Assembly (NCBI GenBank): GCA_963576725.1
Contig: OY755252.1
Span: forward strand, 30,460,578 to 30,524,577
DNA from: Azorinus chamasolen
Lineage: Eukaryota; Mollusca; Bivalvia; Cardiida; Solecurtidae
Direction: 5' to 3'
Length of the DNA: 64,000 nucleotides
The notes beneath the pieces were generated by a model, which made no database searches, was not told where the DNA came from, and saw only the letters and a list, made by a program, of their open reading frames with translations. Both the position numbers and the translations under genes were made by a program. Every line of letters begins with the position of its first letter. The first letter of the stretch is position 1. This document shows positions 3,450 through 46,378 of the stretch, piece by piece.

Positions 3450-5140
3450 TTAGCGTGCTCCGAAATTGATAATAGTCAAATAATCTGGAAGGACACTACA
3501 ACCAAACATCTTCCTTTGAGTCGATAAAAATATAAGTCTTGTTCCGACCGAAACAGCCAGTACCTACAGTCTTCACAGTAAAGCCCACTCTAAGCCAGAA
3601 TTCTAGTAGATACACGATAGTTAATTTTAGGCAGGTGACTGCTTAATGCAGGGTGAAAGGCATGCAGAAAGCTCCTCTAGGTGACAGCTTATTGCAGGGT
3701 GAAATTTCCACGAGGAGCTATTTGCATGACTTCCATCCTCCATTAAGCTGCCCCCTGTCTACTAGACCAATTGTAATGCTAAATTAAATGTCCGGTATAG
3801 AGAGAATGTACTGTACATTAATCACCCAGGGTTTGATATTTACCACAGTTAACCCTTACATCGCTGAATTTTCAAATGGACTAGTCCAAATTCAAACAGG
3901 GCAAGCTTATATTGAATATTTAGGACTTTGTCTAAAGAAAAGTGAAATATGACAAACAGTGCAGACCCTGATGAGAGGGTTCCTCTCATCTGGGTCTACA
4001 CGGTTTGATTGCTGCCAGTTGAGCGGAGGATGGATGAGATCATCTTGTGCCGATTCTGATTAATGAGACTGTAGTTGTTGATTGAAGTCATGTTCCTGTG
4101 ACCAGATATTTGCATTATCTGGTTCGCGGGAACATGGTTGTCACCCATCTTTGGAATCATGTGTTTTCTGGGTCTGTGGTTGGACAAGTGTTTGTAAGTG
4201 TAGATTTCGGAGCGCTGGACCATGTGTTTCATCATGGTACAAAACTACAGACAAGATTTACACGATCGGACTTCTACGGAGCTACACGTCGTTCGGTGAA
4301 GATGAGTAGATAAATAACTGTTGTTAAATTAATGCTATGTAAAATGGACAGTCAGGCTCGGAATAACCGGAGTTTCGACTTTTGGCATGCTCTCTGTATA
4401 CTGCTATTTAACACTTGTTTGGATTGTCCAAGTTTACCCAAAGTTTTGGTTTTAGAACGCGTATGTAACTCGAGGGTAGCCTACCGTGTTTGCCATGTTT
4501 GTTTTTATTTTTGACAGCGCGTATGAATAGGTTAGGTCAGAATATACAACGAGTTGTATTACAAGCATTCAATATCGCAAATATAGTTCCCAAGTTATAC
4601 CACGGAAGTAATGTGATACAAATTATATCATGACTATTAATCAGATGATTTTGTACAACAGCATATGAACACAGGCAATGTTGGCTGAGACAGGAATTGC
4701 CGAATCAGATCTATATAATACCATAAACAAACAGAGCAGACCCTGATCAGACAACTCCTACGGGAACTACATCTGATCTGGGTCTAATCTGTTTGCAAAT
4801 GCGTGAAAAACGTTTGTATAAGGACAGGGTTAAAATTAACTTCCTGTATTTGTAAATATGTAGTTGCTTAATGCAGAATGAAAGCATTGCAGAAAACCCC
4901 CCGAGAAGCTTTCTGTATTACCTTATTTAAGTCTGCATTAACCTGTCACCTGTATTTGTTTTTAAAACAATATTCTTTCATGGTTATCGTACAGGATATA
5001 AGTTGTTTATTCATTATTTTCCCCAGCCCTCAGAATAAAGGGTGTGTGTGGCGATATGTGTGGGATAATTTGTTAGGGCCCCGACAGATTGCTCATGATA
5101 ATCAATATTTGAAATATTCATATCTGGTTAATATGCAAGA
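3450..5140. other. non-coding stretch with hairpins
   Basis: No gene seen. It holds degenerate copies of the palindromic MITE core (3630-3765 and 4860-4950, with TGCTTAATGCAG), hairpins at 3952-4007, 4087-4145 and 4727-4796, and otherwise AT-rich sequence. The short open frames here have no recognisable features. Confidence 0.6.
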
Positions 5141-5142
5141 TA

Positions 5143-5335
5143 CAGTAAAACCGCATCTAAACCGAAACTCTAGTAGAGTAAAAGTTAGATACTGTTTGGT
5201 GTCTGCCTAATGCAGCGTTGCACTCATGCAGTAAGCTCCTAAAAGAGAATATGCAAGACTTTCTCCTGCTTTAAGCTGTCATATGTCTCCGAGATCTATA
5301 TTTATACTAAATTGAACGGGTTGGAGGGGTTTTAC
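5143..5335. mobile_element. TA-flanked palindromic MITE (CAGTAAAACC family)
   Basis: It starts TA|CAGTAAAACCGCATCT and ends AGGGGTTTTACT. Between lies a decayed palindrome built on TGCCTAATGCAG and AGCTCCT. The ends resemble Tc1/mariner-pogo type MITEs with a TA target. Sister copies with intact ends are at 13738-13990, 20694-20902 and 56122-56334. Confidence 0.6.
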
Positions 5336-5376
5336 TACAGCAACACATCTCTATAACGGTCATTACATTGTGTTAA

Positions 5377-11450: not shown

Positions 11451-11715
11451 ATTCTGTTGAATATGAATGAGGTGTAGGTAGACCTTGGTGTTTCAGTAGA
11501 TTTCATATGAAATGGCAGAATTTGGTATATAAAGGGCAGACTTGCATTTTTTACGGGTAGAATTATCAAATTTCCATTAAATATCGGCTATGGTGACTTA
11601 CTATTTTCTCTTAACCGAATAAATCTTTGATATTCTGTTGAATATGAGATATCTATAGGTAGAGATTGATGTTTCAATAGATTTCACCATCAGAAATGGC
11701 CATATTTGGTATATA
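11451..11715 (+). repeat. 184-bp satellite, left part of split array
   Basis: About 1.4 monomers of the satellite that continues at 22901. The last monomer carries the diagnostic variants AGAATTATCAAATTTCC, AAATATCGGCTAT and AATGGCCATATTTGG, which match the monomer ending at about 24537 almost exactly. The block stops at TA, immediately before the terminal repeat of the 11.2-kb insertion. Confidence 0.9.
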
Positions 11716-11955
11716 CAGTACAAGCCTCGCGGACTTTTTGTTTTCCGCGGCCCATCGCAATTTTATCCAACGCGGACACGGGTATTTTTGTCCGCGCTGA
11801 TATGCGGTCTTCCGCAATCGAGCGCGGGTTGTGATGGGTCCGCGCTGGTCCCTCCACAGGGGCACTCGTCGCCGGGCGCGATCGTTATCACCGCAGGTCG
11901 CGATGGTATCATCGTGGACCACTGTGTACCACTGCGGATCGCGCTGGACCTTACC
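11716..11955 (+). repeat. left TIR and GC-rich subterminal region
   Basis: The TIR is at 11716-11747. The following roughly 200 bp are rich in CpG and hold many variants of CCGCGCTGG, CGCGGAC and ATCGCGATGG, in an otherwise AT-rich neighbourhood. Subterminal motif clusters often serve as transposase binding sites; that role is inferred. Confidence 0.75.
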
Positions 11956-11959
11956 TGGA

Positions 11960-13300
11960 TTGATATTTATATCCTTTTCATCCTTTTATATCCATTTTCA
12001 CGGCTTATCTTTCTCTTTACAAGTACATACAAATATATACATCCACATTTTGCAAAATTGATATGAAATGTATGAAATAAAACACTCGAGAAATGGTTCG
12101 TTTAGACTAATTCCAAACCGAAACTGTTCTGCATTCGGCAAACACAAATTAATTCATCCATTATTTTTGGCGCGTTTGATTGTACTGGAATATAACCTGT
12201 CCGTGAATTGTCTGATTCGTTTCTGCATAATATGGGTGCGATATTCTAGTATGCTTTCTATTTCAATTATTTGTTGTTCAATACGTAAGATGTTTTATAT
12301 AGAAACACGGAACACCCGTTAAACACAAAACACACACAATAAGTTACTAGGTTGTATAACTTGTATCAGGTTTGCATACGTTTGTGCACATTGTTAATGA
12401 ATTCATCTTCATTTCGACTCTATGTTTTAGGTTCCAATTCTAATTCCCAATCGATTTTGTTTTCAGTTTCACATCAGTGTAAATTTTAATTATCAGAAAT
12501 CTACTGGAAACGACCAACAAAACCTATTGATTCTGTTATGAGAATAGTCCTGACTGGTCTTCTTATGATTTCTGTATAGATCTACATGTATATAAATATT
12601 GTTCTGGCAGACGAAAGAATTGAGGGATTTTATTTCTAATACATCTAATATCAATTCAGCCAGGTGAGTTGTAAAGTTAGAAGTTTTCTCCATTATTTAG
12701 TCTTGGTTCGGCAGCTTAAATGTATGTACGTTTTAACCAGTTTCAATAGCCATTCGAATAATACTTGTATGGTTGTTTTATTACCCTTGTGCTTAATATT
12801 TTACAATCGATTCACTGCCATGATGTACCTGCATCCTATGGATTAAAAAAAAAAGATAATCCATTTTTTTTCTAAAAACGTAGATATAGATGTAAACCAG
12901 TTTTTGGTTCTGGTTTGATAATGAGATATTGGACGTCTGGTCTAGATCTAAAGTGTTGTTAATGTCTTGGCAACCGAATTCTGGGAGTGAAGGGGCATAC
13001 GAATTAAATTAATCAATGTTATTAAAGAAGCGTATACAGTATGTACATGGTTTATCAAACCACGGACCTCGTACACCCACATTCTTTCGTTAAACGGATA
13101 TGTCTAAACCAACGTGTCGCCTGCTTAAATTCCATGACCTATTCCTTATTTAGAAATAGATCACAATTTCCCCATTGTAAGTTGTATTTACTATTAAAGC
13201 CTTCCATGTCAAACTTGAAAACTCTAATGTTTGCAAACAGTTTGGATCCTGATCAGACGCCGCGTCTGATAAGGATCCAAACCATTTGACACTTATATTA
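11960..13300. other. interior of the large insertion, no gene seen
   Basis: AT-rich sequence without recognisable exons. Open frames of 60-90 codons occur but have no domains, splice sites or repeats to support them. A hairpin (13233-13289) lies at the right end. Confidence 0.5.
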
Positions 13301-13307
13301 AAGTTTC

Positions 13308-13551
13308 TTAAGACCCATTCCTCCATACATGTAGGCTCAATTTGGATCCAACCTCTTTGAATAAATCTACCGAAAAGGAGCATTAAGTAGATAAAATTAT
13401 TGTTTTTAGAATTTTGTAATTTGAAACCATTGTGTTAAATAGAGCATATACTCCTATACGTGTAGGAGCAAATGCTCTTTTTATCACATTGGTTTCAACA
13501 GGTGACTTTTACAGAGGCGTAGAAAGGAGTATTTATGGAGGAAAGGGTTAA
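13308..13551. mobile_element. TTAA-flanked MITE, GAGCAT hairpin type
   Basis: TTAA at 13308-13311 and at 13548-13551; ends GACCCATTCCTCC and GGAGGAAAGGG. The internal hairpin is AGAGCATATACTCCTATACG with its complement. The family also occurs at 42164-42390 and 59418-59619, with a truncated copy at 31124-31290. Confidence 0.65.
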
Positions 13552-13737
13552 GTAAAAAACTATCATAATTTTTTTATAAAGAAAAGTAGATGAAACATGT
13601 AAGCAGACAATGATTTGACAGTGACTATTTTAGTGGATTATTACGTCATAATGACAGTGAAGGGGTTTATAGGATACAGTACAGATTACAGCAAACACCT
13701 CCTTTCAACAACACTTTAAATGAATCCCCAAAACTTA

Positions 13738-13990
13738 CAGTGGAACCTCTCTACATCGATACATGTACAAATAAAATGTCTGTTTTAAGACAGGTGGCAG
13801 ATTAATGCAGGATAAAAGTACTTTTGTCCTGCATTAAGCGGTCACTTGTATTCAAAAGATCCCAGGTATTCCTTACTGGGTTGTCTCGAGAGAGAGAGTT
13901 GCCATGAAACTCCGATGAGCAACAACCTCTCTACAACGACAATACAGAAGTTTATATCTCCCAGAGTGTTGCTTTGCAGAGGTTATACTG
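13738..13990. mobile_element. TA-flanked palindromic MITE
   Basis: TA|CAGTGGAACCTCTCTAC at the left and GCAGAGGTTATACTG|TA at the right. The centre is a palindrome using GGTGGCAGATTAATGCAGG. Same family as 20694-20902 and 56122-56334. Confidence 0.75.
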
Positions 13991-14833
13991 TAGTTATCAT
14001 TTATTAATAAATACGTACAGCAAAATATATATCTCATACATGTACGCCAACTTTCTTTCTTTTTAAAAGCATATTTCTTAATTTAAATGCCAATTTCTAG
14101 TTTTAAAGTAAGCCGGTGGTCTAATATTCGATGCGTTAAAAATGTAACTGCCCCTGATAATAACAAAATTACTGCAAAACCTTATAAAACGAACCCTGTG
14201 ACCATACCGAGAAATGACCTGATTAGAGAGGTTCTCAAACCGGTATAGCGAAGTAAAATAACAATTCAAAACAGTTGAATTGGCTGTCATTTAAAAAAGG
14301 TGGTAACTAAACACAGGATACATGTAGCTCCAATATCGGTTTAGAAAGATTATCGGTTAAGGGGCGGCGATTGTAAACAACCATTCTTAAAAATGTTGAT
14401 TTGACGATCGTTTAAAACAGATGACAGCTAATTGCAGATTGAAGTAATTTAGAAAGCTCCTTACTCTTTCTGCATTACCGATTTCCTGTGTAATCAACCG
14501 TCCGTTTTTAGAACAATGTAGGTATTTTCTTTTTTATCCTTTGCGAGCAAGTAGAGCAAGTAAAATAAAATAAAATTTGAAGGGGACAAATGTCAGCCCT
14601 ATCCTCCCATGTCCAAATAGGAGAACAAATGTCCTAGAGAGAAAATGTCCGTATACCGAAGGGTAGATACAATGTATAACAAGAAGCTGGAATGAATCGG
14701 CCTTCAGGAACGCCCTATACATAACTAGCTGAACTTTGGAAAAAAAGATCCCATGATCTGACCTTTCTTTGAAATGGAAGACATTCTTATTTATGTGTTG
14801 GCCATGCCTCATATGTCGAATAGGGGTACACTC

Positions 14834-14925
14834 AAAAACCCTTTACTACAAAAGCTCCTCATCTAAAAGCCCCTCACTACAGAAGCCCCTCGATCAAAAG
14901 CCCCTCACTAAAATGGCCAAGGCTT
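14834..14925 (+). repeat. short AAAGCCCCTCA tandem repeat
   Basis: Five units of 17-19 bp, each containing AAAGC(C)CCTCA followed by CTACAG or a variant. No function is suggested. Confidence 0.5.
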
Positions 14926-14989
14926 ACAAAAGTTCCCCACTATTTTTGTTAATTAATCATTATACTCCAAATATTTGGACAAAGTGGAC

Positions 14990-17100
14990 CAAAATCAAAA
15001 TTACAGCTATCTGGATCTACCCTGTTTGCTGAATGACCAGTTTATAAAGATTCATTAAGTAAGGTAATTAGCACACTCTATACTTATAAAAGTAAACATT
15101 GTAGATCACAAGGAGGAGATTCCTTATATTTATTTCAAACAGGGTAGACCCAAATCAAATCTAAAGCTATATGATCTAGTTCAACCATGTTAGCTTTGTG
15201 ACAGGTAATATAGATCCAATAGCTATGGATGATGTAATATTAGCCATATTATTTATAAATTATTATAATATTACCCCAATTAACTTAAACACAAACTTTT
15301 TCCATTTTCTAATTCCTTAACTTTCTTAAATTTCAAACAGAGTAGACCAAAATCAAAATACTGAGCAATCTGATCTGGATCTACCCTGTTTGCTCAATGA
15401 CAAGCTTATAAAGATTCGTTAAGTAAGGTAATTAGAACACTCCTTTTAAAAGTACACTTAACATAAGAAAAAATGATTAATAAACACGATTTAGCACTGC
15501 TGGCAGCAGACACCTAATTTGCTTTAAAATCAATTTCCCAACCCTTCTCTTCTTATATAAACGGCTTCACGCGCGTTTGCAAATAGAGTAGATCCAGATC
15601 GGACAGTTCCTGTAAGAGCTGTCTGATCAGGTTCTGCTCTGTTTGCTTGCGAAAGTTTGTTGATCTAATCCTAATTGATCTGTCAGAGCTAATGATCGAT
15701 CTATTTGAAAAGTTAACATTGTGAAAAAAGCCTTTAGATCTTCTTCATGAATATTCTTGTAAGAAATAATGATTTAATTGGAGAGTTAATGATATGTGAG
15801 CACATGCTATGGCAGTAATTGTATAACCAGACCTACCGGTATATTATTTCTTAAGCAAATCGACAAGAACCTGATCAGAAACTCTCTGATCTTGATCTAC
15901 TCTGTTTGTAAATTTGTTTCAATACGTTTGATCTGGGTCTACTATGTTTGCATTGGCATAAACAGGCACATGGAATGAAGGGTTTATATTCGTGAAGTGA
16001 TTTACTGACACATATTTTTTCATAAGGGAAATCGTTTATCATAAATATGATCCTTTTGCAATTTTTGAACATGGACAATTTTGCCCATAAATCCATAGGA
16101 AAAAAGTCATTCTGGATTACTGTAATTTACGGAATTGTTCATTGGATGCGTTTTATAATTATAGTTTTACTGATTATTACCTACATTTTGCCCAAAACTA
16201 ACTTTGAGGCACCATGACCGCAATGATTGATTCTTTTGACAAGTTACCACAGCTACATAAAGGAATGCAACAATACGTAATATACAGGAAGCGGGTTTTA
16301 TGGCCTTGCAATAATCATTGTCCCCTGTTCGGTATTTGACAAAAGGCCACTATGATAACTGACATCTGGAGACTGACCCTGCATGGGGCATTTCGTGTGT
16401 AATATGGCTTAGTACAATATGGCCTAAGGCCATTTAACACATTCATTCATACATGCATAGAGAAATTCTACTGGCTATGTTTACTGTTGTTCCCATATAC
16501 ATGTAATACAAACCATAATTAAATTGCACATACGAGTATACTGTAAAATTATGATAAAGAAAAATGTAGTAACAGTTTTAATGTGTTGACAATATTTTTT
16601 TATAGACATTTTTATTTGTAGTGGGTCCAGTCATTTAAACATAATTCACAAGCTTCAGAAACATGAATATATTAAAAAAAATTAGTCATTCTTCAAGACT
16701 GACAACCATTTATTATCAAGATCCACCTTTTCTCATTTTCCCAACAAAATACATATTTTGGTAGTTCAACCTTTACTCGATTTCCCGAAAGTAATGCATC
16801 ATTTTTGGTATTGCAAATATTAAAGTAAAATAGATAAATAACTAATTTTCTATTTTTCTGCATTTTGGTGGAATTTCTTTGTTTTTCTAAAGTACGTACA
16901 TTTATACATAGTACTATGTTACTTAACGAGAACGTCCCATTTCATCTGAACCCACTTTGCCTAAATATGAAATCCATCTAAAGTTGTCTGGTTCTGTCTA
17001 AAAGTTGTTTGGACCCAACTCATGGACGGGACCCAAATGGTCCCTCTGATCTGAATCTACACTATTTGCTAATGGTCTTGGTTCTAACCTCATCCTCTTT
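14990..17100. other. insertion interior: hairpins and inverted relatives of 9.1-9.6 kb
   Basis: 14990-15470 resembles the reverse complement of 9130-9650. Further hairpins of the GCAAACAGAGTAGACC type lie at about 15580-15650 and 15865-15910. No gene is seen. Confidence 0.5.
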
Positions 17101-17155
17101 TTAAATTATAGTTTATGAATAGTGTTAATTCACTGACAGGTAAAGTAAGTTTTAA

Positions 17156-17352
17156 CCATTCGCTTGCTATTCACGTCAATATACCTGTAAATAGTGAAAA
17201 CCTGCAGGAGTTGTCTCGAATCACCGCTGTCTCATCAGGGTCTGCACTATTTACAAGTTGATTTACAGCAGTGATTGCACAGTCAAATACGTGTACACAG
17301 CGAAACTATATGTAATTATACAACAGGGCATGGGTAAAATTCAAGAGAAGGT
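17156..17352. mobile_element. TTAA-flanked MITE, GTAAATAGTGCAGACC hairpin type
   Basis: TTAA at 17152-17155 and 17353-17356; ends CCATTCGCTTGCTATTCACG and its degenerate partner. Inner hairpin at about 17182-17265. It is in inverse orientation to the relatives at 5377-5618 and 58677-58887. Confidence 0.65.
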
Positions 17353-18603
17353 TTAAGATTAACAAATTAAAAAGTATGTGTTTAATTTTAAGTATCGTTG
17401 TATTCCACACCTAAAATAAACATCACACCCCATAAATAGTTTCCCCTACTCGATAAACTAAGTGTCACTTTCTATGGCTAATCCATGGACGTAATGTCTG
17501 GAAAAGTGTGAAAATAATTTGGGTATTTATAGAAACTTAGTAGTCGGATTTGATCTAATTTTGTAAGCAAACAGAACAGACCCTAATTAAACGGTTCCTG
17601 TAGGCTCTGATCTGGATCTACTCTGTTTGCAGAGGCGTTAATTTAAAGGAAAAGGTTAAGTTTCTGTGTACATTCCTCCCTCTCAATGGGATCCCTGACA
17701 GGCGAGCATCACAAGTGACGTCACGCAAGGGAGATAATCATGTATCGATTTTCAAAATACACGGTTCGCGGTACAATAAAAACTCGATTTAAATCAAAAC
17801 TAGATAAACACGGTAAGAATTTTCTAAAGCTTAGTGTTTAACTAACTGTACACTATCAGAATTTGACGAAACCCCGATCTGTTTACTTGACCTTTAAATG
17901 ATAAGACTCAGATCAGATTTCTTAAATAAAAGCTGTTTGACCAGGAGTCTGCTCTGTTTGCTTATCCCTTTACCATATATAAACAATGTCCATGCCTTTG
18001 CAAACAGAGTAGACCAAGATCTGAAGGTGCCTATTGGAGTCGTATGATCGGGACCAGCTCTGTTTACTTGTGAAATTATATAAGATCTGACTCTACATTT
18101 TCTACAAGTACCAAGAAAAGTCATGGACCGCGTACATACACCATTATAAAAATCAACTTATAAATAGCATGATGTCATCTTTTCCGACATAAATATTAAA
18201 CAGGGAAATGGTTGAAACCCACCGACAACCAAACTTTAGGTTACACTTCAGCTAGAGATCCGCACGTCTGACATGACCCGGCAACAGAAGTAAAAATTCT
18301 GAGAGCATCGACGCTTTTCACGTGCTTGCAAACAGAGTAGACACGGATACGATGGCTCTTATAAAAACCGTCTGATCAGGGTATTCTCTGTTTGCTTATG
18401 AATTTATGTTGAATCTAACTCTATAGTTTTGTTCCAATACCAAATAAGCCTCAGTACATAAGCTATTTTAAAAATAAATTTAATAAATATTCATGATATC
18501 GGTATTTCGGTTTACGGACATTTGCCTCCCGGACACTTGCCCCCGGACCTTTGCCCCCTATTTGGGGCCTTAAAAAAAGGATAAAATATAATTTTGAAAA
18601 AAG

Positions 18604-18716
18604 GGTGGCATTTTTTCCAGTGGCATATATTCCAATGGCATTTTTCCAAATCAGGGTGGCATTTTTTCCAGTGGCATTTTTTCCGGTGGCATTTTTTTTC
18701 CAGTGGCATTTTTCCG
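18604..18716 (+). repeat. minisatellite of GTGGCATTTTTTCCA units
   Basis: Seven or so degenerate copies of the same unit as at 10361-10450. It is preceded at 18517-18560 by three copies of a GGACATTTGCC(CCC) motif. Open frames across it are low-complexity artefacts. Confidence 0.75.
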
Positions 18717-19553
18717 TACACCGCATTAAGCAGTCACTTGCCTTTGAAAATGATACACTAACACTAATTCGATGTTTTTACGCGGAAACAAAATTTAGTC
18801 GATTTTTATTTTAAAAGAAGACAGAAGGAAACCCGGTAAGAAAACAAAAAAACATTTTTAAAAGCAAATTCTTTCAGCATAATAAATGTAGGTAACTTGG
18901 ACATTCTCTATAGGACCCTGAAAGTTTAAAAAGATAAAAAAAAAATGCAGATCAACCCTTAGCCCGCCGAGCGTGGCTTCCTTAATATTTACAAACAGTT
19001 TGTATACTGAACAGATGATGAGTTCCCCAGAGTGTTACTAGGGTCAAATATGTCTGACTCTCATTTTTCTGTTTGTTTTCAACGAACTAAAGCAATGCTT
19101 ATTCATTTATTTTGCAGACTACATTTTTTAAGCGGACGATAATTCAGTATAATGGGGGTCAAATGTTTTGGTCATACATTAAAACAATGATCGCTTTGCG
19201 TGCTCTACAATGTACGGAAACTACCTTGGTGTTTCAGCGCAGGGGGGTCATTGATTTATGGTCATCATTGTGTTAATTATTTGGTCATCAATAAAGTTCC
19301 TACAACTTTAAAGAAAGACTATCGGGTATTTCCGCTCTTTTGCTACTATCAAGATGTCACAGCTCATTGGTTCAGTATCTTTAAGACCCACCCATTGAAA
19401 AGACATAATCCAATCAACTGTCACCTATAGGCGTGTCAATCACCAATAATTGATATTGCTCTTCATAATTGATGAGCGGCCATCTATATTTCCCACAATA
19501 TTAAATATAGAATGAATGGGTATTATGTATTCAAAATTTCTTCATATTGTACT

Positions 19554-19801
19554 TTAACCCTTTCCCTCATATGAACGTGTTTTCACGCAATTGCAAACAG
19601 AGAAGGGTCTTCTCTGACCTCTTAGAGGAGCCGCCTGATCAGGGTCTACTCTGTTTGCTAATAGAATTTGATAGATATATTTCTTTGCTTTGTTAAATAG
19701 CTGCAATGTCCCCCTTCCATATTTCATTTATAACTATTTTTGTCCATGAATATTCAGTAAGTATTGAAATTTTGAATAAACATAGTACAGGGAAATGTTA
19801 A
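19554..19801. mobile_element. TTAA-flanked MITE, GCAAACAGAG hairpin type
   Basis: TTAA at 19554-19557 and 19798-19801; ends CCCTTTCCCTCATATGAAC and CAGGGAAATG. It contains the CAAACAGAGAAGGGTC hairpin and a TCCATGAATATTCAGTA tail. Well-matched copies are at 22012-22275 and 36148-36387, and one in other sequence context at 39200-39474. Confidence 0.75.
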
Positions 19802-20234
19802 ATAAAACAATCTCTATAAGCTTGAAATAATAATTGATGTCGGTGAGGGTTTGACGTTAGGTTTAAAACCAGTCAATGTTATTTTACATGTAAGTATTAT
19901 TTTAAGAAATTGTTAATACAAGATATCCATCCATGCTATCAGATCGGACAAGGCCTTATAGACCAGTTATATTGAATTTGTCTGTTGTTGTCGTGGAGAC
20001 ATAGCATGCTACGAGCACCTGTGAATCAATACAGGGGCACTGTATTAAAATGAAATATTTATCATGTTTTAGACTTTGTTATTGTCTGATACATAATTAA
20101 TAAGCCCATAATATATTTCCTCACCGTCCCTGTCCCTCTCTCTGTGTACAATTGTTGTTGTTTCTAAGAAGTCCTCTCCCCCAAATAAACATTTACAATG
20201 ATATGCAATCACAAGGCCAGAAGGGACGTCAAAA

Positions 20235-20277
20235 TCTCTCTCTCTCCGTCTCTCCCTCTCTCTCCGTCTCTCTCCCC

Positions 20278-20345
<68 letters not shown>

Positions 20346-20346
20346 C
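20235..20346. repeat. (TC)n microsatellite
   Basis: Imperfect then perfect TC repeat. Other TC tracts are at 20934-20993, 21128-21152, 28881-28924 and 54580-54612. Confidence 0.95.
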
Positions 20347-20693
20347 ATATGGTTCCTTTCGTATTTAAACCCGTTATAACGGCCACCTCATTATACCAGC
20401 ACAATGTCTGGGAACAAACACCTCAGTTGTAACAAGGGTTCACTGTAGTTAGCCAGTCTGGCATTATCTCTTTCCATACTGCTGATGACTTTGTGCAAAT
20501 TGTCCAGTTTAAATCTGCATGACAAGCCCCGTCATATGATAAGGGGTATCTTCGGCTTCCACACCCAAGAAGAATTCATGACTAAGAACTGCATTTGGAC
20601 ATATTCAGTATTCTTCAATTCTAAATTACATGTAATTAGAATAAAGTGTTCTTTTGTGGGGATACTTTCTGTTCATATTTTACATTAATTATA

Positions 20694-20902
20694 CAGTAAA
20701 ACGTCGACAGATCGAACACTGCAATAAATATCATTATATTTATGTAAGGCAGGTGGTACCTTAATATAGAGTGCAAATCATGTAGAAAGCTCCTATATAA
20801 GCTTTCTGCATGGCTTTCAACCTGCATTAAGCAGTCACTTGTCTAAAAAGGCATCAATGCATTATTAATAAAATTTCAAAATACATGTATCGAGTTTTAC
20901 TG
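20694..20902. mobile_element. TA-flanked palindromic MITE
   Basis: TA|CAGTAAAACGTCGACAG ... CGAGTTTTACTG|TA, 209 bp. The core palindrome runs from GGCAGGTGGTACCTTAAT to ATTAAGCAGTCACTTGTCT around AGCTCCTATATAAGCT. Confidence 0.8.
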
Positions 20903-20933
20903 TAGTTTTTAAAACAGATTTAGGTGCTGCGTG

Positions 20934-20987
<54 letters not shown>

Positions 20988-22011
20988 CTCTCTCTGTCCG
21001 TCTCTTCCACCTCTTACTCTCCCTCTCTGTCTGTCTGTCTGTCTGTGGCTGTCCCTATCTATCTGTCTCTCTGTGTGTCTCTCTTTCTGTCTCTGTCTCT
21101 CTCTGTGTGTGTCTCTCTCCCCCAACCTCTCTCTCTCTCTCTCTCTCTCTCTTCCCGCAGATATGAATGGATTACGTATGGCTATCTATCATTTCAACTT
21201 TTATATTGGTAATGGAGTAATAATTTCCCCAGGACGAATGGCAATTTATGCTTGACAGATCCTATAAGAAACCAATGCACACCCTGATCATACAGCCTCT
21301 AAGAGCTGTTTGATCTGGGTCTGCACTGTTTTTAAATTGCGTCAATATATGCTACTAGCATGAAAAGGGTTAATATGACTTAAATGAATAACATTACGAT
21401 CGCAGCTTTGAACTCATCTGAAAGACAACGACATACCAATATTTGGCTATCTGTTATTTCAGGTGGCTCTTTTATACAGAGTAATGATTTATGCAGGCGA
21501 CTGCTTTGCACCGTTTCAAAATAAATTATAATACAATAAGCTACAATAGTTTTCATCTTAATTCTGATATCAACTTAAATCTTGTAGCTGCACTACATGG
21601 TCGGTCAAACAAGAATAGCTGTAACAGTATAGATTATTAGTGTAGATGCGGTGTATTAGTGTAGATGCGTTTCGAACTTTATAATTATTTAATCAACTGT
21701 TTGCATCTCTTCGTCGAATGATACCCAGTTCAACCCTTTACTCCATAGGTACTCATTATAGTGCGTTAATCCATTCCTCCACTCAAAAATAGTTCCACTT
21801 GATACATTCATGAATATGCGCCATAAGAAATATTTCTATATCACAGTAGACGGTAGCTTAAAGCAGGCTGAGAAAAACGCAAAATGGTCCCATTCAGCCT
21901 GTTTTAATCAAACATCTGTCTTCAATACTGAACACAAACTATAGAGTAAAGTGTTAAGGTTTAAAAAAAAGTATTTCAACAAATAATGGTTGGATACAAC
22001 TCTCCACCCCT

Positions 22012-22275
22012 TTACCCTTTCCCTCATATAAACCTGTTTTCACGCATTTGTCAAGAGAATAGACCTAGATCAGACCGCTCCTAGAGGAACCGTCTGATCA
22101 GGGTCTACTCACTTTGCTAATAGAATTTTATAGATCTGTTTATTTGCTTTCCTAAAATGTCTACAATGCTCCACCTTCCATAATTCATTATAACTATTTT
22201 GTCCATGAATATTCAGTAGGTACATGTACATTTGTATTTAAATTTGGAACACATATAGAACAGGGAAAAGGTTAA
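22012..22275. mobile_element. TTAA-flanked MITE, GCAAACAGAG hairpin type
   Basis: Closely similar to 19554-19801 from the CCCTTTCCCTCATATAAAC end to the CAGGGAAAAGG|TTAA end. The left TTAA has decayed to TTTA. It lies inside the large insertion. Confidence 0.7.
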
Positions 22276-22674
22276 TACGCGCGTGGGGTCGAAACAAATA
22301 TGACCGAGTGCTCCTGATATCTATAATCTCTGCGTTACGCATTTTCTGAAAATCAGATTGTGAAAACAATTGCTGCTGATATTTTGTATCTATTTCTTTT
22401 TTCTCGAGCATTTACAGTCTGGTAATCGTTAAAATCTTGACTATAAATTGTAGTTTTAGCAGAAAGAAACCGCTTCAGTCTCGGGTTTTGGGTGAAGGCT
22501 ATCTATATACGTATGCTATCTAATTTCATTTTGAATTCTAGATCTGACAGTATATTCAATATGCGTTTCTTCAGTTGAAAAAAAATGCACATGTGTATTT
22601 ATATATACATGTAAGCTTTTGTATATATCTTATCTAAATAATTTATACCTAAATCGATTAAACGACTGCCAGTC

Positions 22675-22898
22675 ATAAAGGTAGTGTCCGCGGTGATGCC
22701 CCGCAATCCACGCTGATATCAGCACGGACAGCGATGGCTCGGCGGCGGTAATATCCCGTAGGGTAAATTTCGGTCCGCGGTGGACACAGAATTTGTCCGC
22801 GGTGATCCATAAAAATTGTCCGTGCTGGAAACCCGCTCTCAATTTATTTTGTCCGCGCTGGTAAAACGGAAAACAAAAAGTCCGCGGGGCCTGTACTG
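22675..22898 (-). repeat. right TIR and GC-rich subterminal region
   Basis: The TIR is at 22867-22898, in inverted orientation to the left one. The inner about 190 bp repeats GTCCGCGGTG, GTCCGCGCTGG and GTCCGTGCTGG spaced some 20-35 bp apart. It resembles the left subterminal region in motif content and length rather than base for base. Confidence 0.75.
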
Positions 22899-22900
22899 TA

Positions 22901-25900
22901 ATGGGCTGACTTGCATTTTTTACCGGTAGAAATATCAAATTTCCATTAAATATGGGCTATGGTGACTTACTATTTTCTCTAAACTGAATAAATATTTGAT
23001 ATTCTGTTGAATATGAGATAGCTGTGGGTAGAGATAGATGTTTCAGTAGATTTCACCATCAGAAATGGCAGTATTTGTTATATAATGGGCTGACTTGCAT
23101 TTTTACGGGTAGAAATATCACATTTCTACTACAATATGGGCTATGGTGACTTATTATTTTCTCTGAAATGAATAAATATTTGATATTCTGTTGAATATGA
23201 ATGAGCTTTATATAGATGTTGATGTTTAAATAGATTTCACCATCAGAAATGGCAGTATTTGGTATATAATGGGCTGACTTGCATTTTTTACCGGTAGAAA
23301 TATCAAATTTCCATTAAATATGGGCTATGGTGACTTACTATTTTCTCTAAACTGAATAAATATTTGATATTCTGTTGAATATGAGATAGCTGTGGGTAGA
23401 GATAGATGTTTCAGTAGATTTCACCATCAGAAATGGCAGTATTTGTTATATAATGGGCTGACTTGCATTTTTACGGGTAGAAATATCACATTTCTACTAC
23501 AATATGGGCTATGGTGACTTATTATTTTCTCTGAAATGAATAAATATTTGATATTCTGTTGAATATGAATGAGCTTTATATAGATGTTGATGTTTCAATA
23601 GATTTCACCATCAGAAATGGCAGTATTTGTTATATAATGGGCGGACTTGCATTTTTTACGGGTAGAAATATCAAATTTCCACCAAATATGGGCTATGGTG
23701 ACTTATTATTTTTTCTAAACTGAATAAATCTTTGATATTCTGTTGAATATGAATGAGCTGTAGGTAGACATTGATGTTTCAATAGATTTCACCATCAGAA
23801 ATTGCAGTATTTTGTATATTATGGGCTGACTTGCATTTTTTACGGGTAAAAACATAAAATATCCATTAAATATGGGCTATGGTGACTTACTATTTTCTCT
23901 AAACTGAATAAATATTTGATATTCTGTTGAATATGAGATAGCTATAGGTAGAGATAGATGTTTCAATAGATCTCACCATCAGAAATGGCAGTATTTGTTA
24001 TATAATGGGCTGACTTGCATTTTTTACGGGTAGAAATATCATATTTCTACTACAATATGGGCTATGGTGACTTATTGTTTTCTCTGAAATGGATAAATCT
24101 TTGATATTCTGTTGAATATGAATGAGCTTTATATAGAGGTTGATGTTTCAATAGATTTCACCATCAGAAATGGCAGTATTTGTTATATAATGGGCTGACT
24201 TGCATTTTTACGGGTAGAAATATCACATTTCCGCTATAGTATGGGCTATGGTGACTTAGTGTTTTCTCTGAAATGAATAAATCTTTGATATTCTGTTGAA
24301 TATTTGACGTTTCAATAAATTTCACCATCAGAAATGGCAGTATTTGGTATATAATGGGCTGACTTGCATTTTTTACGGTTAGAATTATCAAATTTCCATT
24401 AAATATCGGCTATTGTGACTTACTATTTTCTCTTAACCGAATAAATCTTTGATATTCTGTTGAATATGAGATATCTATAGGTAGAGATTGATGTTTCAAT
24501 AGATTTCACCATCAGAAATGGCCATATTTGGTATATAATGGGCTGACTTGCATTTTTTACCGGTAGAAATATCAAATTTCCATTAAATATGGGCTATGGT
24601 GACTTACTATTTTCTCTAAACTGAATAAATATTTGATATTCTGTTGAATATGAGATGGCTGTGGGTAGAGATTGATGTTTCAGTAGATTTCACCATCAGA
24701 AATGGCAGTATTTGTTATATAATGGGCTGACTTGCATTTTTACGGGTAGAAATATCACATTTCTACTACAATATGGGCTATGGTGACTTATTATTTTCTC
24801 TGAAATGAATAAATATTTGATATTCTGTTGAATATGAATGAGCTTTATATAGATGTTGATGTTTAAATAGATTTCACCATCAGAAATGGCAGTATTTGTT
24901 ATATAATGGGCGGACTTGCATTTTTTACGGGTAGAAATATCAAATTTCCACCAAATATGGGCTATGGTGACTTATTATTTTTTCTAAACTGAATAAATCT
25001 TTGATATTCTGTTGAATATTAATGAGCTGTAGGTAGACATTGATGTTTCAATAGATTTCACCATCAGAAATTGCAGTATTTTGTATATTATGGGCTGACT
25101 TGCATTTTTTACGGGTAAAAACATCAAATATCCATTAAATATGGCCTATGGTGACTTACTATTTTCTCTAAACTGAATAAATATTTGATATTCTGTTGAA
25201 TATGAGATAGCTATAGGTAGAGATTGATGTTTCAATAGATCTCACCATCAGAAATGGCAGTATTTGTTATATAATGGGCTTACTTGCATTTTTTACGGGT
25301 AGAAATATCATATTTCTACTACAATATGGGCTATGGTGACTTATTGTTTTCTCTGAAATGAATAAATCTTTGATATTCTGTTGAATATGAATGAGCTTTA
25401 TATAGAGGTTGATGTTTCAATAGATTTCACCATCAGAAATGGCAGTATTTGTTATATAATGGGCTGACTTGCATTTTTACGGGTAGAAATATCACATTTC
25501 CGCTATAGTATGGGCTATGGTGACTTAGTGTTTTCTCTGAAATGAATAAATCTTTGATATTCTGTTGAATATTTGACGTTTCAATAAATTTCACCATCAG
25601 AAATGGCAGTATTTGGTATATAATGGGCTGACTTGCATTTTTTACGGGTAGAAGTATCACATTTCTACTACTATATGGGCTATGGTGACTTATAATTTTC
25701 TCTAAACTGAATAAATATTTGATATTCTGTTGAATATGAGAAATTTTTGGGTAGAGATTGATGTTTCAATAGATTTCACCATCAGAAATGGCAGTATTTG
25801 GTATATTATGGGCTGACTTGCATTTTTTACGGATAAAAACATCAAATATCCATTAAATATGGGCTATGGTGACTTACTATTTTCTCTAAACTGAATAAAT

Positions 25901-26897
25901 ATTTGATATTCTGTTGAATATGAGATAGCTATAGGTAGAGATTGATGTTTCAATAGATCTCACCATCAGAAATGGCAGTATTTGTTATATAATGGGCTGA
26001 CTTGCATTTTTTACGGGTAGAAATATCATATTTCTACTACAATATGGGCTATGGTGACTTACTATTTTCTCTGAATGAATAAATCTTTGAAATTCTGTTG
26101 AATATGAATGAGCTTTATATAGATGTTGATGTTTCAATAGATTTCACCATCAGAAATGGCAGTATTTGTTATATAATGGGCTGACTTACATTTTTTACGG
26201 GTAGAAATATCACATTTCTGCTAAATATGGGCTATGGTGACTTATTATTTTTTCTAAACTGAATAAATCTTTGATAATCTGTTGAATATTAATGAGCTGT
26301 AGGTAGACATTGATTTTTCAATAGATTTCACCTTCAGAAATGGCAGTATTTGGTATGTAATGGGCTTGCTTGCATTTTTACGGGTAGAAATATCACATTT
26401 CTACTACTATATGGGCTAAGGTGACTTATTATTTTCTCTGAAATGAATAAATCTTTGATATTCTGTTGAATATGAATGAGCTTTATATAGATGTTGATGT
26501 TTAAATAGATTTCACCATCAGAAATGGCAGTATTTGTTATATAATGGGCTGACTTGCATTTTTTACGGGTAGAAATATCACATTTCTGCTATAGTATGGG
26601 CTATGATGACTTATTATTTTCTCTAAACTGAATAAATCTTTGATATTCTGTTGAATATGAATGAGCTGTAGGTATACATTGATGTTTTAGTAGATTTCAC
26701 CATCAGAAATGGTAGTAATTGGTATATAATAGGCTGACTTGCATTTTTTACGGGTAGAAATATCACATTTCCACTACAATATGGGTTATGGTGACTTATT
26801 ATTTTCTCTGAAATGAAAACATCTTTGATATTCTGTTTAATATGAATGAGCTGTAGGTAGACATAGATTTCACCATCAGAAATGGCAGTATTTGGTA
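22901..26897 (+). repeat. 184-bp satellite array with higher-order repeats
   Basis: About 22 head-to-tail monomers; the landmark ATGGGCTGACTTGC recurs at 22901, 23085, 23269, 23453 and 23637, an exact 184-bp step. A 368-bp dimer is repeated at the start. A larger unit of about 1,269 bp (about seven monomers, one with an internal deletion) recurs, so that 24164-24391 and 25433-25660 are nearly identical. One monomer pair (about 24376-24720) matches the two monomers that flank the 11.2-kb insertion. Open frames in the array are by-products of repetition. Confidence 0.95.
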
Positions 26898-31891: not shown

Positions 31892-34821
31892 CTCAGGGAG
31901 CCAATAGTGCCTACCATGCCCCCTAGACTTTTTTCATGGGTACCAAAATGTTCAGAAAAGGCTCGTGAATCAGAATCGCGAATGTACTCAAGTTTAAATT
32001 CTTTTAGGCTATGTGTATTTTAACCGTTTCCATGCCCCCCCCCCCCCCCCGGTTTTCGTAATGATAACCCATACCTTCAAATTCGCCCATATCACAGCCA
32101 GTGTTTGCCCTAAACCTATAAAACTGGTACCAAATGAAAGATAAGACATTGTGCTTTTATTTCTAATCTATGTTTTTAAATTACCTTATTTGCATACTCA
32201 TGGATATTAATGAGAACATTAAAAATAGTAAAAAAAGTACAAATATAACGTAAACCTTTAATTTTCTTATCCTACAAATATCAGAAAACAGTTTAACATG
32301 ATGACCAAACCCCCAGAAAACAAAATATCCAATTTGAGGACCAAAGCATTAATTTTAAGTACCATTTTCACCGTTTCCATGGCAACATCCCAGTTTTTGT
32401 TATAATGGCCCGTACATGCAAAATCGTCAATATCACAGCCTGTTTTTGTCCTAAACCTATAAAACTGGTACCAAATTGGAGATAAGACATTGTGCTTTAA
32501 TTTCCAGCTGTTGTTTTAAATTACCTTATTTGCATACTCATGAATATTAATTAGAACATTAAAAATAGTAAAAAAAAAGAGAAATAACGTAAATAATGTC
32601 TACTATTCACTTTTTATCCTACATATAGCGGAAAACAACTTCAAATGCAGTTTAACATGATGAAAAAATCCTAAGAAAACAAAATATCAAATTTGAGGAC
32701 CTAAAATTAACTCTAAGTAACATTTTAACTATTTCCATAGTAACCATTCATTTCACTCTGTTCACACATATTTTGTTAGTCGACCCCTACCTGCAAAAAT
32801 CTTCCATAACACAGAAAGATTTTTTTACTAACTGTATAAAACTAGTACCGAATTAAAGCTAAGACATTGTGCGTGTCTTTAAAGGCTATACTTAGGAAAT
32901 ACCTCATTTGCATACACATGAATATTAATGAGAATAATTAAAAAATAATATTTATTTATTCATCACCAAAATGTACATTTACCATTGCAAGCTATATTTG
33001 GAGAATGTTGTAATGTTGTGCTCGGCATACTATTACCATCCATGTTATTTTCAATATGTTTTCTTATCACTAATTAATATTCACGAGGATGCCAATGAGG
33101 TAATTTGCATAAAGTAAACCAAACATGAATATTCATACATCAACTATATGTTCATATCCTTTATGATTATTGGCTAAGTAGACTGCGATATCTTTGTATG
33201 TTGCAGGTATTCAGACACTCTGTAATATGAACAATGAGGTTAGAATGGTTGCCTAGGAAACAGATATATCACAATCAGCCGAATCAGTGCTATATAATGT
33301 GTCCCAAATTTATTTATGTAACAATCTTGGTGATATTTAGTGATCATTTTAAGCTTTAGCTAACCATTTGCATTTTTATAAGAGAAAGACTGGTGTATTT
33401 CGAAAATTTCAACATCTTTTACTGTTCTCATAAATATTCATACATATGCAAATTAGTTTATATCAGAAAAGTAATATTTACTATTAAAGCAATGCCTCAT
33501 ATCTATGTTTGTACCAATTTTTACATTATTCATTAAAAATAACCGAGATCTAGCGGAGTATTACAGGTAGATGTCAAATTTCCAAAATTTGTGAAAGGAT
33601 CGGTTACCATGTAAACAGTAACAATGTTACTTACAGTTCATTGTTTGGTTATCCATTTAGATACTTTGCTTTCTTAGTATTTTGTCATCAATTTAAACTA
33701 CATTTGAAGTTGTTGTCTGATATTGGTAGGATAAATATTGAGAGGTTTACGTTATTTCTGTATATTTTATTATTTTTTGATTTTTCTCATTAATATTCAT
33801 GTGTATGCATAAGTATAGCCTTTAAAGACAAGCACAAGGTCTTAGATTTAATTCGGTACTAGTTCTATACAGTTAGCACAAACACTGTCTGTGTCATGGA
33901 AGATTTTTGCAGGCAGGGGTCGACTAACAAAATATGTGTGAACAGAGTGAAATGAATGGTTACTATGGAAACAGTTAAAATGTTACTTTGAGTTAGTTTT
34001 TGGTCCTCAAATTTGATATTTTGTTTTTTTAGGATTTTTTCATCATGTTAAACTGCATTTGAAGTTGTTTTCTGCTATATGTAGGATAAAAAGTGAATAG
34101 TTGACATTATTTACGTTATTTCTGTAATGTTTTTACTATTTTTAATGTTCTAATTAATATTCTTGAGTATGCAAATAAGGTAATTTAAAACTAGAAGCTG
34201 GTAATAAAAGCCCAATGTCTTTTCTCCAATTTGGTACCAGTTTTATAGGTTTAGGACAAAAACTGGCTGTGATATGGACGATTTTGCATGTACGGGCCAT
34301 TATTACGAAAACTGGGGTGTTGCCATGGAAACGGTGAAAATGGTACTTAAAATTAATGCTTTGGTCCTCAAATTGGATATTTTGTTTTCTGGGGGGTTTG
34401 TCAGCATGTTAAACTGTATTTGAAGTTGTTTTCTGGTATTTGTAGGATAAGAAAATTAAAGGTTTACGTTATATGTTTACTTTTTCTACCATTTTTAATG
34501 TTCTCATTAATATTCATGAGTATGCAAATAAGGTAAATTAAAAAAATAGGTTGGAAATAAAAGCACAATGTCTTATCTTTCCTTTGATACCAGTTTTATA
34601 GGTTTAGGGCAAACACTGGCTGTGATATGGGCGAATTTGAAGATATGGGTCATCATTACGAAAACTGGGGGGTTGCCATGGAAACGGTTAAAATACACAT
34701 AGCCTAAAAGAATTTAAACTTGAGTACATTCGCGATTCTGATTCAAGAGACTTTTCTGTCCATTTTGGTAACCATGAAAAAAGTATAGGGGGTGCATGGT
34801 AGACACTATTGGCTCCCTGAG
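31892..34821. mobile_element. 2.9-kb foldback element with long repeat-built TIRs
   Basis: The left end TA|CTCAGGGAGCCAATAGTG and right end CTATTGGCTCCCTGAG|TA are complementary. Pairing extends inward over roughly 1 kb per arm. Each arm contains about three degenerate direct repeats of some 345 bp with landmarks CCGTTTCCATGGCAAC, ATAAAACTGGTACC, AGACATTGTGCTT, CATACTCATGAATATTAATG and TTTGAGGACC. Repeat-built terminal arms are characteristic of foldback elements. There is no open frame with known domains, so it is non-autonomous. A 1.57-kb relative lies at 61108-62678. Confidence 0.85.
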
Positions 34822-43290: not shown

Positions 43291-44743
43291 TGTGTTTTAA
43301 GCCACTAAACCTTTATTCTGCAAAATCGCTCCACCTACCTTCTGTTTCTATTAACAACTGTTTTCACAATGGCCCAAAAGTGGTACTTTCTCCGTTACAT
43401 AAATATATTCAACATAGTACTGTAGTTAATATAATTCAAAATAAACGGATTTTGCACGGAAGACGTAGAATGTATCCAACCATTGATAAGTGCAATGCTA
43501 AGAGGTGTATGTGCTGCAAATATCTATCTTGTAATTCTACCATTAAATCTACAATTAATGGTAGAGTTTTTACCACAAAATTTACATCAAATATTAACTA
43601 TAAAACTTCTCATGTGATTTACGTTTTAACATGAAATGCACCACTCTGTGGTATACAATATGTAGGACAAACTGGACGCTCACTAAAAACTAGATTTTGT
43701 GAGCATATATATCAATGCCGGAATAATAAAATAAAAAAAATTCTATACCAGCATTTTCGTAAATCGGGTCATTCATTTAAAGATATTACAGTTCAGCCAG
43801 TTGAACATCTTGTTTATGATTATAATTCTACAAACAGCATCAAATCTAAAGCCAGATTTATGGCAGAACTCAAATGGATAAAAAATTTACAGACACCTTT
43901 CCCTTTAGGCCTAAATTATAACATATATCAAACCGGAAATATTTCTAAAGACCCTAACATTGATATATTTTCTATTTACTCAATTAGAAAACGAAAAACC
44001 AGATCACATGGTTTACGTATAAACGGCAATATCAAACGCAAAGCTCGACATAAAACGTCTGTTTCAGATTTTCACAATATACGTCTACAATCTGGCAAAC
44101 ATACTATGCTCTCTCGTCTATGTTCTTTGTCTATTTCTTCCGTAAGAGACATTGACATAGAAGCAGACAAAGTGATCTTACGAACAGATCCTTTATATAA
44201 TACAACTTCTTTCATTCAGAACTACACTCGGCATGTTCTTCGACCACACGTTGATTCAGTGTCTGCCCATAAAAGATAGTTTTTTAAAATTCCTTTTGTT
44301 AATAAAGGTATAGATTTTATCGATCTACAATCAATATTTCGCGATAAAAACGTAATTAATACCATCCCAGCCTATTTCAAAAACTTAGAATCTCCAATTA
44401 TCTGCTATAAGTACAAAATACCTATTAGGAATAATATTTCTAATTACAATAAAATTGTATCGGACCTTAATATTGTAAATAATACTCCTGTTAGTTGAAA
44501 TTGTAATTCTTCTAAGTTCTGTTACGCCGAGGCTGGTCATGTTATTACAGGCAATTGTGACATTATCGAAAACAAATGTCTCCGTACTTTACTAACTAAG
44601 GGACCTAAATACAGACTACCTTCTTTGATAGATTTCGAAATCTGCCGTAGCAAAATTATAGAATCTTTGTTATACTTCAGTGTAAAATGGTGTCGCCGAG
44701 AACATGCAGACAATAGTGCCCTTACAAAATGGATAAAATAAAT
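43245..44743 (+). pseudogene. Naiad N-terminal GIY-YIG endonuclease and CxC linker, with in-frame UGA
   Basis: One reading frame holds, in order: a Cys-rich lead-in (KRCMCCKYLSC), a GIY-YIG endonuclease (VIYVLT at 43614-43631; IQYVGQTGRSLKTRF from 43653), a long basic linker and a CxC-type linker domain (44487-44540). UGA at 43632-43634 replaces the cysteine expected after VLT, and UGA at 44496-44498 makes the first position of CxC read UGA-N-C, followed by NSSKFCY. Both fit selenocysteine, which is reported for clam Naiads. TAG (44277-44279) and TAA (44739-44741) are not UGA and mark this copy as inactive. The endonuclease-first order separates Naiad from canonical Penelope elements. The true start codon is uncertain. 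Confidence 0.8.
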
Positions 44744-46378
44744 TTCAAATATAATGGATACACGTATCGCGTTTTACAAATCTAACATTCAACTTCTTCC
44801 GCCTAAACCTAAGAGTTCGCTTCTTAAAAAATAGTATACAAGAATTTCACTCTAAATACGTTTTTGTCCCAGCTGATAAAGCGTCAAACAATGTAATTAT
44901 CGTTTAACGACTTTATTATGTGGATGTTTTAGAGCAAGAACTAACTAAGACAAAGTCATATATTGTGGTCTCTAAGTCTGAAAACGACATAATATCTGAA
45001 CATGTTAATAAATGTAAACAGTTCAATGCTGATATATTAATCACACATCATAAACTTCCGACGATGTACTGGATACCTAAACTCCATAAAACGCCATATA
45101 AATCACACTTCATAGCAAATTCTGTCTCATGCACAACAACTGCACTATCCAAACTAATTACATCGTGTCTAACAGCGGTCAAAGAACATGTCAAGCGTTA
45201 CTGCGATAAAGCTTATGAGAATTCAGGAATTAACCTTTTTTGGTCTATAAAAAACTCCAATGAGGTTTTAACTAATTCAAAAATCAAGCAACACCAAGCT
45301 AACACTATAAGCACTTATGATTTTTTCTACACTTTATACCACATTACCACACGATCTAATTAAGACCAAACTTACTAATCTTATAAATAAAACATTTGCC
45401 AGAGAAAAAGTATCATTTATTGCCTGTAATTCTAGACATACGTTCTTTACCAATGACGTTACAAATAAATATACCTGGTGGACATATTTATATCTTTGTG
45501 ACGCTATTACGTTTCTGTTAGACAATATATTTGTTCGTTTTGGTAATTCTGTTTATCGCCAGGTCATTGGTATTCCCATGGGAACCAATTGTGCTCCTTT
45601 AATTGCAGACTTGTTTTTGTTTTGTTATGAACTGGATTTTATGGTTAACCTTAACAGCGATTCACAGGCGGATGTCATCAATGCCTTTAACAATACAGCA
45701 CGTTATTTAGACGACATTTTTAATATTGATAACCCATACTTTGATTCTATGATAACCTCAATTTACCCTAGGGAGCCCAAGCTTAATAAAGCAAATAGTT
45801 CTGACATATCTGCAGCCTTTTTAGATTTAAATTTATCTATAAACAATGGATCAATTTCTTCTGGAATTTATGACAAAAGGGATGACTTTAATTTTAAAAT
45901 AGTTAACTATCCTCATTTGGATAGGGATGTTCCCCGTGCTACATGTTACGGTGTATACATTTCTCAGCTTATTCGTTTTGCTAGTGCTTGTTCCTCTGTT
46001 GATGATTTTAACAATCGTAACCTTATTATCACTGAAAAACTACTAAAACAGGGCTACAGATATGACAAACTTCGTAAAACATTTTCAAAATTTTACCACC
46101 GTAATGTTCTACTCATCAGCAAATACAATTGTAAATTACGTACTTTTCTAAAGTTAGGTATTTCACATCCGGAGTTTTACGGTGATGTCATTTACAAACT
46201 TCGAAAAATTATTGGACACATATATTTTGATACTTTGTTTGTCAAACGTATAAAACAATTCATTAAAAAGGGATATGACCCCTCTATATTGCAGCACACT
46301 ACATGCTTGGTGGTCGACCCCTTTACAGTTGGTCATTATGCTTTCCTCTTTGCTTGTGCGACGACGGAAAAGGCTTAA
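44744..46378 (+). pseudogene. Naiad reverse transcriptase, frameshifted
   Basis: Continuation of the element through three frames. A frameshift near 44826-44833 leads to a frame with a TAA at 44905-44907 and then YWIPKLHKTPYK (about 45067-45102). An extra T in the run at about 45311-45316 shifts to the frame of RT motif A (FSTLYTTLPHDL, from 45320). Then follow IPMGTNCAPLIADLF (from about 45572), the catalytic YLDD at 45704-45715, FLDLNLSI and IYDKRDDF. The frame ends TAA at 46376-46378. The catalytic motifs are intact, but the frameshifts and stops prevent a full product. The fold class is shared with telomerase RT (family knowledge). Confidence 0.85.

Follow-up and report, generated by a model that had tools for sequence, protein, structure and literature searches.

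A family of 8- to 11-kb terminal-inverted-repeat elements with TA target duplications and no recognized transposase gene in Azorinus chamasolen

RESULTS

An 11.2-kb insertion with inverted ends and a paralogous empty site

We analyzed a 64,000-nucleotide stretch of the genome of the bivalve Azorinus chamasolen (contig OY755252.1; here called the window), placed at C18:30460578-30524577 of the 1.72-Gb host assembly, which contains an 11.2-kb insertion bounded by terminal inverted repeats (TIRs). This element is very probably a non-autonomous TIR transposon, and it belongs to a family that is real, large, and recently active; the presumed chemistry is ordinary, but a length of 8 to 11 kb without a recognizable gene is unusual. 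Overall, the data are best read as a long-lived family of giant non-autonomous cut-and-paste elements that would be moved in trans and remodeled internally, an interpretation that we regard as reasonably probable. The features of the window copy are collected in Table 1.

The two TIRs match at 30 of 32 positions, or 32 of 34 counting the TA, in agreement with the first-pass annotation of this sequence, which had reported TIRs of about 32 bp with two mismatches and TA on both sides. By a binomial estimate, an inverted pair of this quality would arise by chance somewhere in the window with a probability of ∼5e-6, and a search of the window with the TIR, allowing up to 11 mismatches in 32, recovered only the two outer ends of the element. 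When the flanks were joined with a single TA, the resulting sequence was 97.3% identical over 489 bp to positions 24309-24797, where the satellite junction is uninterrupted; the runner-up match in the satellite array reached 92.3%. The empty site that the annotation had placed in the same array was thus recovered, and from the alignment it reads as a paralogous, neighboring monomer pair, not as an allelic site. GCGGAC/GTCCGC motifs are repeated over ∼220 bp at both element ends; of the 10 in the window's type of copy (subfamily A, below), 9 are located within 300 bp of an end, and those of the right subterminal region are probable transposase binding sites.

Table 1. Coordinates of the element, its parts, and its surroundings in the window
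Feature	Positions	Strand	Remarks
Whole element, subfamily A copy	11716..22898		11,183 bp; ten further full copies
Left TA, target duplication	11714..11715		TA likewise in 10/10 fetched A copies
Right TA, target duplication	22899..22900		TA likewise in 10/10 fetched A copies
Left TIR	11716..11747	+	32 bp
Right TIR	22867..22898	-	32 bp, 2 mismatches vs left repeat
Left GC-rich subterminal region	11716..11919	+	GCGGAC/GTCCGC motifs; common to subfamily C at 87-88%
Right GC-rich subterminal region	22681..22898	-	Five GTCCGC motifs
Left flanking satellite, portion alignable to empty site	11490..11715	+	
Right flanking satellite array	22899..26852	+	∼184/368-bp units
Paralogous empty site	24309..24797	+	Uninterrupted monomers, 97.3% to joined flanks
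A-only segment	15464..17894		2,431 bp vs 1,256 bp in B, sharp junctions
Segment between two CT-rich tracts	20350..20935		∼585 bp; absent in both B copies
Right-hand part, pieces matching C	21177..22898		82-90%
Interior block common to A, B, C	17955..18508		A-C 86-87%
Interior block common to A, B, C	19039..19459		A-C 92%

Copies of the element throughout the genome

A 34-bp end pattern with up to 3 mismatches had 432 + 426 = 858 matches in the genome, while a reversed control pattern had none in the same search. Queries with the left 385 bp and the right 399 bp gave 488 and 494 candidates genome-wide, respectively; in the best 40 scored for each, 40/40 matched the left query over its full length at 99-100% identity, and 40/40 matched the right query at 100%. 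If the 858 ends represent ∼430 copies of ∼9.5 kb, the family would make up ∼4 Mb of DNA in total. The left-end matches listed include 13 other A copies on the plus strand, of which we retrieved 10, and all 10 were complete, with the same ∼11.2-kb interior, TA on both sides, and differing flanks. Together with the window copy and two copies each of the further subfamilies B and C, TA was present at both sides in 15/15 copies. A second locus with both ends, on which the annotation had made its proposal depend, was therefore found repeatedly, as 32 exact pairs from 100 listed ends and as the 10 complete loci. With constant inverted ends, TA at differing loci, and a paralogous empty site, the family has cut-and-paste anatomy.

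Pairwise substitution among the A copies was 1.1-7.3 per kb (window copy included, copy L017 left out), and singleton variants outnumbered shared ones 429 to 29, roughly half of the singletons coming from a replaced segment in L017. Since the variants are mostly singletons, the alignment points to a single master that gave rise to the copies in a recent burst. Additional insertions are present in three larger A copies (L015, L021, and L025), and at C18:21938432-21938887, where only 33 bp separate a right end from an inverted left end, one copy appears, from the coordinates only, to have inserted near the left end of another. We note that a 6.9-kb nested insertion, running from L015 8453 to L016 5369, contains a 1,430-aa frame (L016) and a 136-aa frame (L015), the latter presumably RNase H/reverse transcriptase-like.

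Persistent large size

Element sizes were surveyed on chromosomes C1-C6 with the 100 exact ends listed first, which formed 32 pairs within 40 kb and left 36 ends unpaired. The smallest pair measured 8.10 kb and the largest 15.43 kb, and the sizes, which include one TA and so run 2 bp high, clustered around 9.4 and 11.2 kb (n = 32; a sample of the 858 ends). Thus, no pair (0/32) was shorter than 8.1 kb, and the short length of miniature inverted-repeat transposable elements (MITEs; <∼1 kb) was not seen in any of the 32, which spanned 8.1-15.4 kb; the concern that the ends might occur only as separate small MITEs did not hold. A 423-bp query of the joined ends also found no compact copies in 40 scored of 949, a query of little power, as the 40 were all right ends with nearly equal scores. 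A 15.2-kb pair at C2:10584977 was considered as an autonomous copy and rejected, being of C type with no transposase in six open reading frames (ORFs) scanned.

In yeast assays of the PIF/Pong/Harbinger group, the smaller elements excised and inserted better, a size effect that the authors regard as in line with findings for the P and Tc1 elements (PMC10288884), so non-autonomous families are expected to shrink. Lengths given in one source are a mean of ∼1.3 kb for Tc1, 1.2-1.3 kb for mariners, and 2-6 kb for PlantMar elements (PMC7325037). A length of 11 kb is not physically barred, since a review table gives a vector capacity of >100 kb for Sleeping Beauty, piggyBac, and Tol2 (PMC8151067). 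What is novel and unexplained about the family is that it has stayed large, where elements that depend on borrowed enzymes usually dwindle to a few hundred bases. That large size is itself maintained, because a non-coding 8- to 11-kb interior with swapped blocks carries something needed for transposition or for escape from silencing, is in our judgment unlikely; the candidates may be an RNA, a signal acting in cis, or a required spacing. If true, the family would be a giant-only class of non-autonomous transposon with a trend opposite to that of MITEs.

Coding capacity and interior content

In the element, 59 stop-to-stop frames of at least 50 aa were counted against a mean of 49 in a Markov simulation, and the longest frame was 127 aa against a simulated mean longest of 121. 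ORFs of at least 90 aa are few, and several of the longest frames lie within CT-rich simple repeats. None of 13 Pfam scan entries, covering 11 distinct ORFs of A, B, and C selected at ∼93 aa or more, gave a match over the cut-off; the only two matches, both below threshold (E 0.03 and 0.05), came from a single C ORF. Likewise, Rfam at gathering scores gave no match inside the element, and no transposase-bearing copy with these ends was seen in any subfamily in a partial search. These results bear out the annotation, which had recognized no transposase, integrase, or polymerase in the 11 kb; the element has no transposase gene by these measures, which short exons may have escaped.

Comparison of B and C in their common blocks revealed no coding signal: across 13 partly overlapping frames of at least 50 codons, summed by hand, 104/102/99 changes fell at codon positions 1/2/3. 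On the minus strand, the right block of B contains a frame of 88 codons that has an 88-codon open counterpart in C, with one inserted base; the 7, 6, and 11 changes of this frame at positions 1, 2, and 3 lean toward position 3.

Interior repeats recur outside the element in the window at ∼69-93% identity, as the annotation had also noted, and because these diverged repeats are present elsewhere in the window, the interior resembles ordinary intergenic DNA; it looks like remodeled host DNA. In a search for family ends leading into another interior, the TIR followed by a purine had 0 matches, and a purine came after the left edge of 204 bp at 2 places. The 21-bp end followed by a base other than T was found at 20 places, which were tentatively taken for point mutants since one lies on a listed right end and another ∼11 kb from one.

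Subfamilies and internal block replacement

The family comprises three subfamilies, A (∼11.2 kb), B (∼9.35 kb), and C (∼8.1 kb), with common ends and a partly common interior. B was sampled with two copies (L029 and L030) and C with L031, a whole copy of 8.1 kb, and with a portion of another copy (L032/L033). Over four blocks, the identity of B to A is 95.7-97.7%. The A-only segment has a 1,256-bp version in B that is mostly common to C and reads as a block replacement in the A lineage. A 1.1-kb block is present in B and C and missing from A, and A is therefore the derived form there. C matches A and B at 86-88% in the left 204 bp and at 87-89% in pieces of the right ∼1.5 kb; it shares three interior blocks with the A/B family at 86-92%, and its remainder is mostly unalignable. 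The two B copies differ at 55 of 9,406 aligned columns and the C copies at 162 of 5,218 (left part). Because within-subfamily divergence differs in this way, the lineage has undergone repeated spread at separate times, remaining large throughout.

Replacement is also seen in single copies. In L017, ∼476 bp of the element (element positions 4887-5363) are replaced by a 635-bp dispersed repeat (L017 5463-6096), for whose family the genome has 2,294 candidates. In the C-type copy at C2:10584927-10600237 (L032 5158-10000, L033 1-4046), ∼1.8 kb are replaced by ∼8.9 kb, inside which a 69-bp piece of C sequence remains. This replacement contains an adeno-IVa2/pox-A32-like ATPase ORF with a C2H2 finger (L033:735-1496, minus strand), and we presume that it may be a Polinton- or adintovirus-like piece.

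Candidate partner transposases

Searches with PF03184, the domain of the pogo/Tigger group of Tc1/mariner, gave 151 matches in the best 150 scored of 597 genome candidates, many with long open frames. Several of the 22 pogo loci read have TACAGT... in the 3′ flank, where the pogo end would lie. The nearest family (L035, L050, L051) ends with TACAGT[G/A]CAGATCCATTATATCGCGGAA, and one host pogo family has ends of the form TACAGTACAG...CGCGGA, which resemble those of the element. The end score of the nearest family was reached by 0 (right) and 3 (left) of 74 TACAGT controls from the window.

DISCUSSION

Taken together, these data suggest how the family may move. A TA-specific DDE/D transposase, most likely of the pogo/Tigger type abundant in the host genome, would be supplied in trans and would bind the 32-bp repeats and the adjoining repeated GCGGAC motifs; the whole unit would then be excised and inserted at TA. 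Interior blocks would occasionally be replaced, with template switching during gap repair as a likely route, and one remodeled master would then spread in a burst. We judge the chances of gap repair as the source of the block replacements to be evenly balanced, and a pogo-type partner is a tentative assignment, just short of an even chance. The annotation's proposal of a giant non-autonomous element that carries host-like DNA is supported by the ends, the copies, and the ORF content, and the element belongs to a large family.

Several points weigh against this reading. The 3′ flanks of 22 pogo loci (12 + 10), each read over 1.0-1.4 kb, lacked the family ends, and a copy with both family ends and a transposase was not seen. 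The similarity of the ends to the nearest pogo family is weak, since 11 candidate ends were chosen by eye and this one scored best. The genome is also rich in Tc1-type PF13358 genes (best 150 scored of 2,320 candidates; the rows listed all exceed the 28.6-bit cut-off, the best at 69). Regarding remodeling, any donor of the 2,431 bp specific to A is putative, and the change in L017 could be a deletion plus an ordinary insertion, which is possible because the replacing segment is a dispersed repeat with so many candidates. The Tc1/mariner-pogo-like label of the annotation is accordingly plausible in its TA target and CAGT-type ends, which are present here and are not exclusive to that group, and is unproven as to the partner.

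A partner that is not pogo-like, whether a Tc1-type DDE_3 enzyme or another with a TA or 2-bp target, such as the CMC/ISL2EU-like family that we assume to be a candidate, would explain the subterminal motifs and the size, and the abundance of Tc1-type genes fits it. The motif-rich ∼220 bp at both ends, which we take to recall CACTA-type subterminal repeats, also point this way. CACTA elements, however, start with CACT and duplicate 3 bp, neither of which is seen here, and the nearest-ended family in the genome is pogo, in a comparison that covered pogo ends; such a partner is a less likely, though appreciable, alternative. It is quite improbable that the element is autonomous or dependent on its interior, through a transposase that is highly diverged or finely spliced, or through an RNA or cis element that it requires. 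This would explain the missing short derivatives, and both the interior blocks common to the subfamilies at 82-92% and the 88-codon frame that stays open in C are consistent with it. On the other hand, the ORF excess is not marked, the Pfam entries gave no match over the cut-off (in ORFs of ∼93 aa or more, a size at which short exons would be missed), the shared blocks lack a codon-position signal, and A lacks the 1.1-kb block of B and C.

A composite, in which two short elements around 11 kb of host DNA moved as one macro-transposon, would account for an interior that resembles host intergenic DNA. The confinement of the TIR, within the window, to the two outer ends speaks against it, as does the lack of a short solo element among the 32 pairs, for which the two-end query is a weak test, and we consider it very unlikely. 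The location in a satellite array could raise the thought of an assembly artefact or segmental duplication, but this was already refuted by the 15 copies with TA on both sides and differing flanks and has a negligible probability. Misassembly at 11716 or 22898, which the annotation had kept in view, is very unlikely because 10/10 further copies, each elsewhere in the genome, agree with it in ends and interior.

The giant trans-mobilized family favored here shares traits with several known systems. The TA target duplication and TACAGT ends are those of the pogo/Tigger group, to which the resident loci with TACAGT in the 3′ flank and the family sharing TACAGTACAG and a CGCGGA motif add further likeness; the element family differs in its 8-11 kb, its ∼220-bp GC-rich subterminal regions, and the lack of any transposase found, and a locus with a pogo gene plus these ends was not found among the 22 loci, in their 3′ flanks. 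MITEs are likewise non-coding, with TIRs, a TA target, and many near-identical copies, but they measure a few hundred base pairs, whereas no pair here came near that length. Pack-type elements, such as the gene-capturing Pack-MULEs, also have TIR ends around acquired host DNA; here that DNA is intergenic and repeat rich, the elements are larger, the target is TA, and the ends number in the hundreds. Large retrotransposon derivatives (LARDs) are similarly large, non-coding, multicopy, and moved in trans, but they are long terminal repeat elements, unlike a family with short TIRs and a TA target. The annotation had supposed that the family might be undescribed, and no giant non-coding TIR family with a TA target was found in the freely searchable full-text literature, a comparison with Repbase, Dfam, and subscription papers outside its scope. 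The family provides a test case for limits on transposon size and for the uptake of host DNA by internal block replacement, as a vehicle that has copied 8- to 11-kb blocks of host-like sequence.

Other features of the window

Outside the element, the ORFs at 43635-46378 have what we take to be likeness to the combination of reverse transcriptase and GIY-YIG nuclease found in Penelope-like elements; two of these ORFs gave no Pfam match. Directly 3′ of an ORF that we presume to be reverse transcriptase-like, positions 46377-46439 match SECIS_1 at 36.8 bits (gathering score, 35), which may be due to chance or to a selenoprotein remnant. Two ∼350-bp tandem pairs lie at 33958-34694 and 61234-61917, and by eye their consensus units look like one family in opposite orientation.

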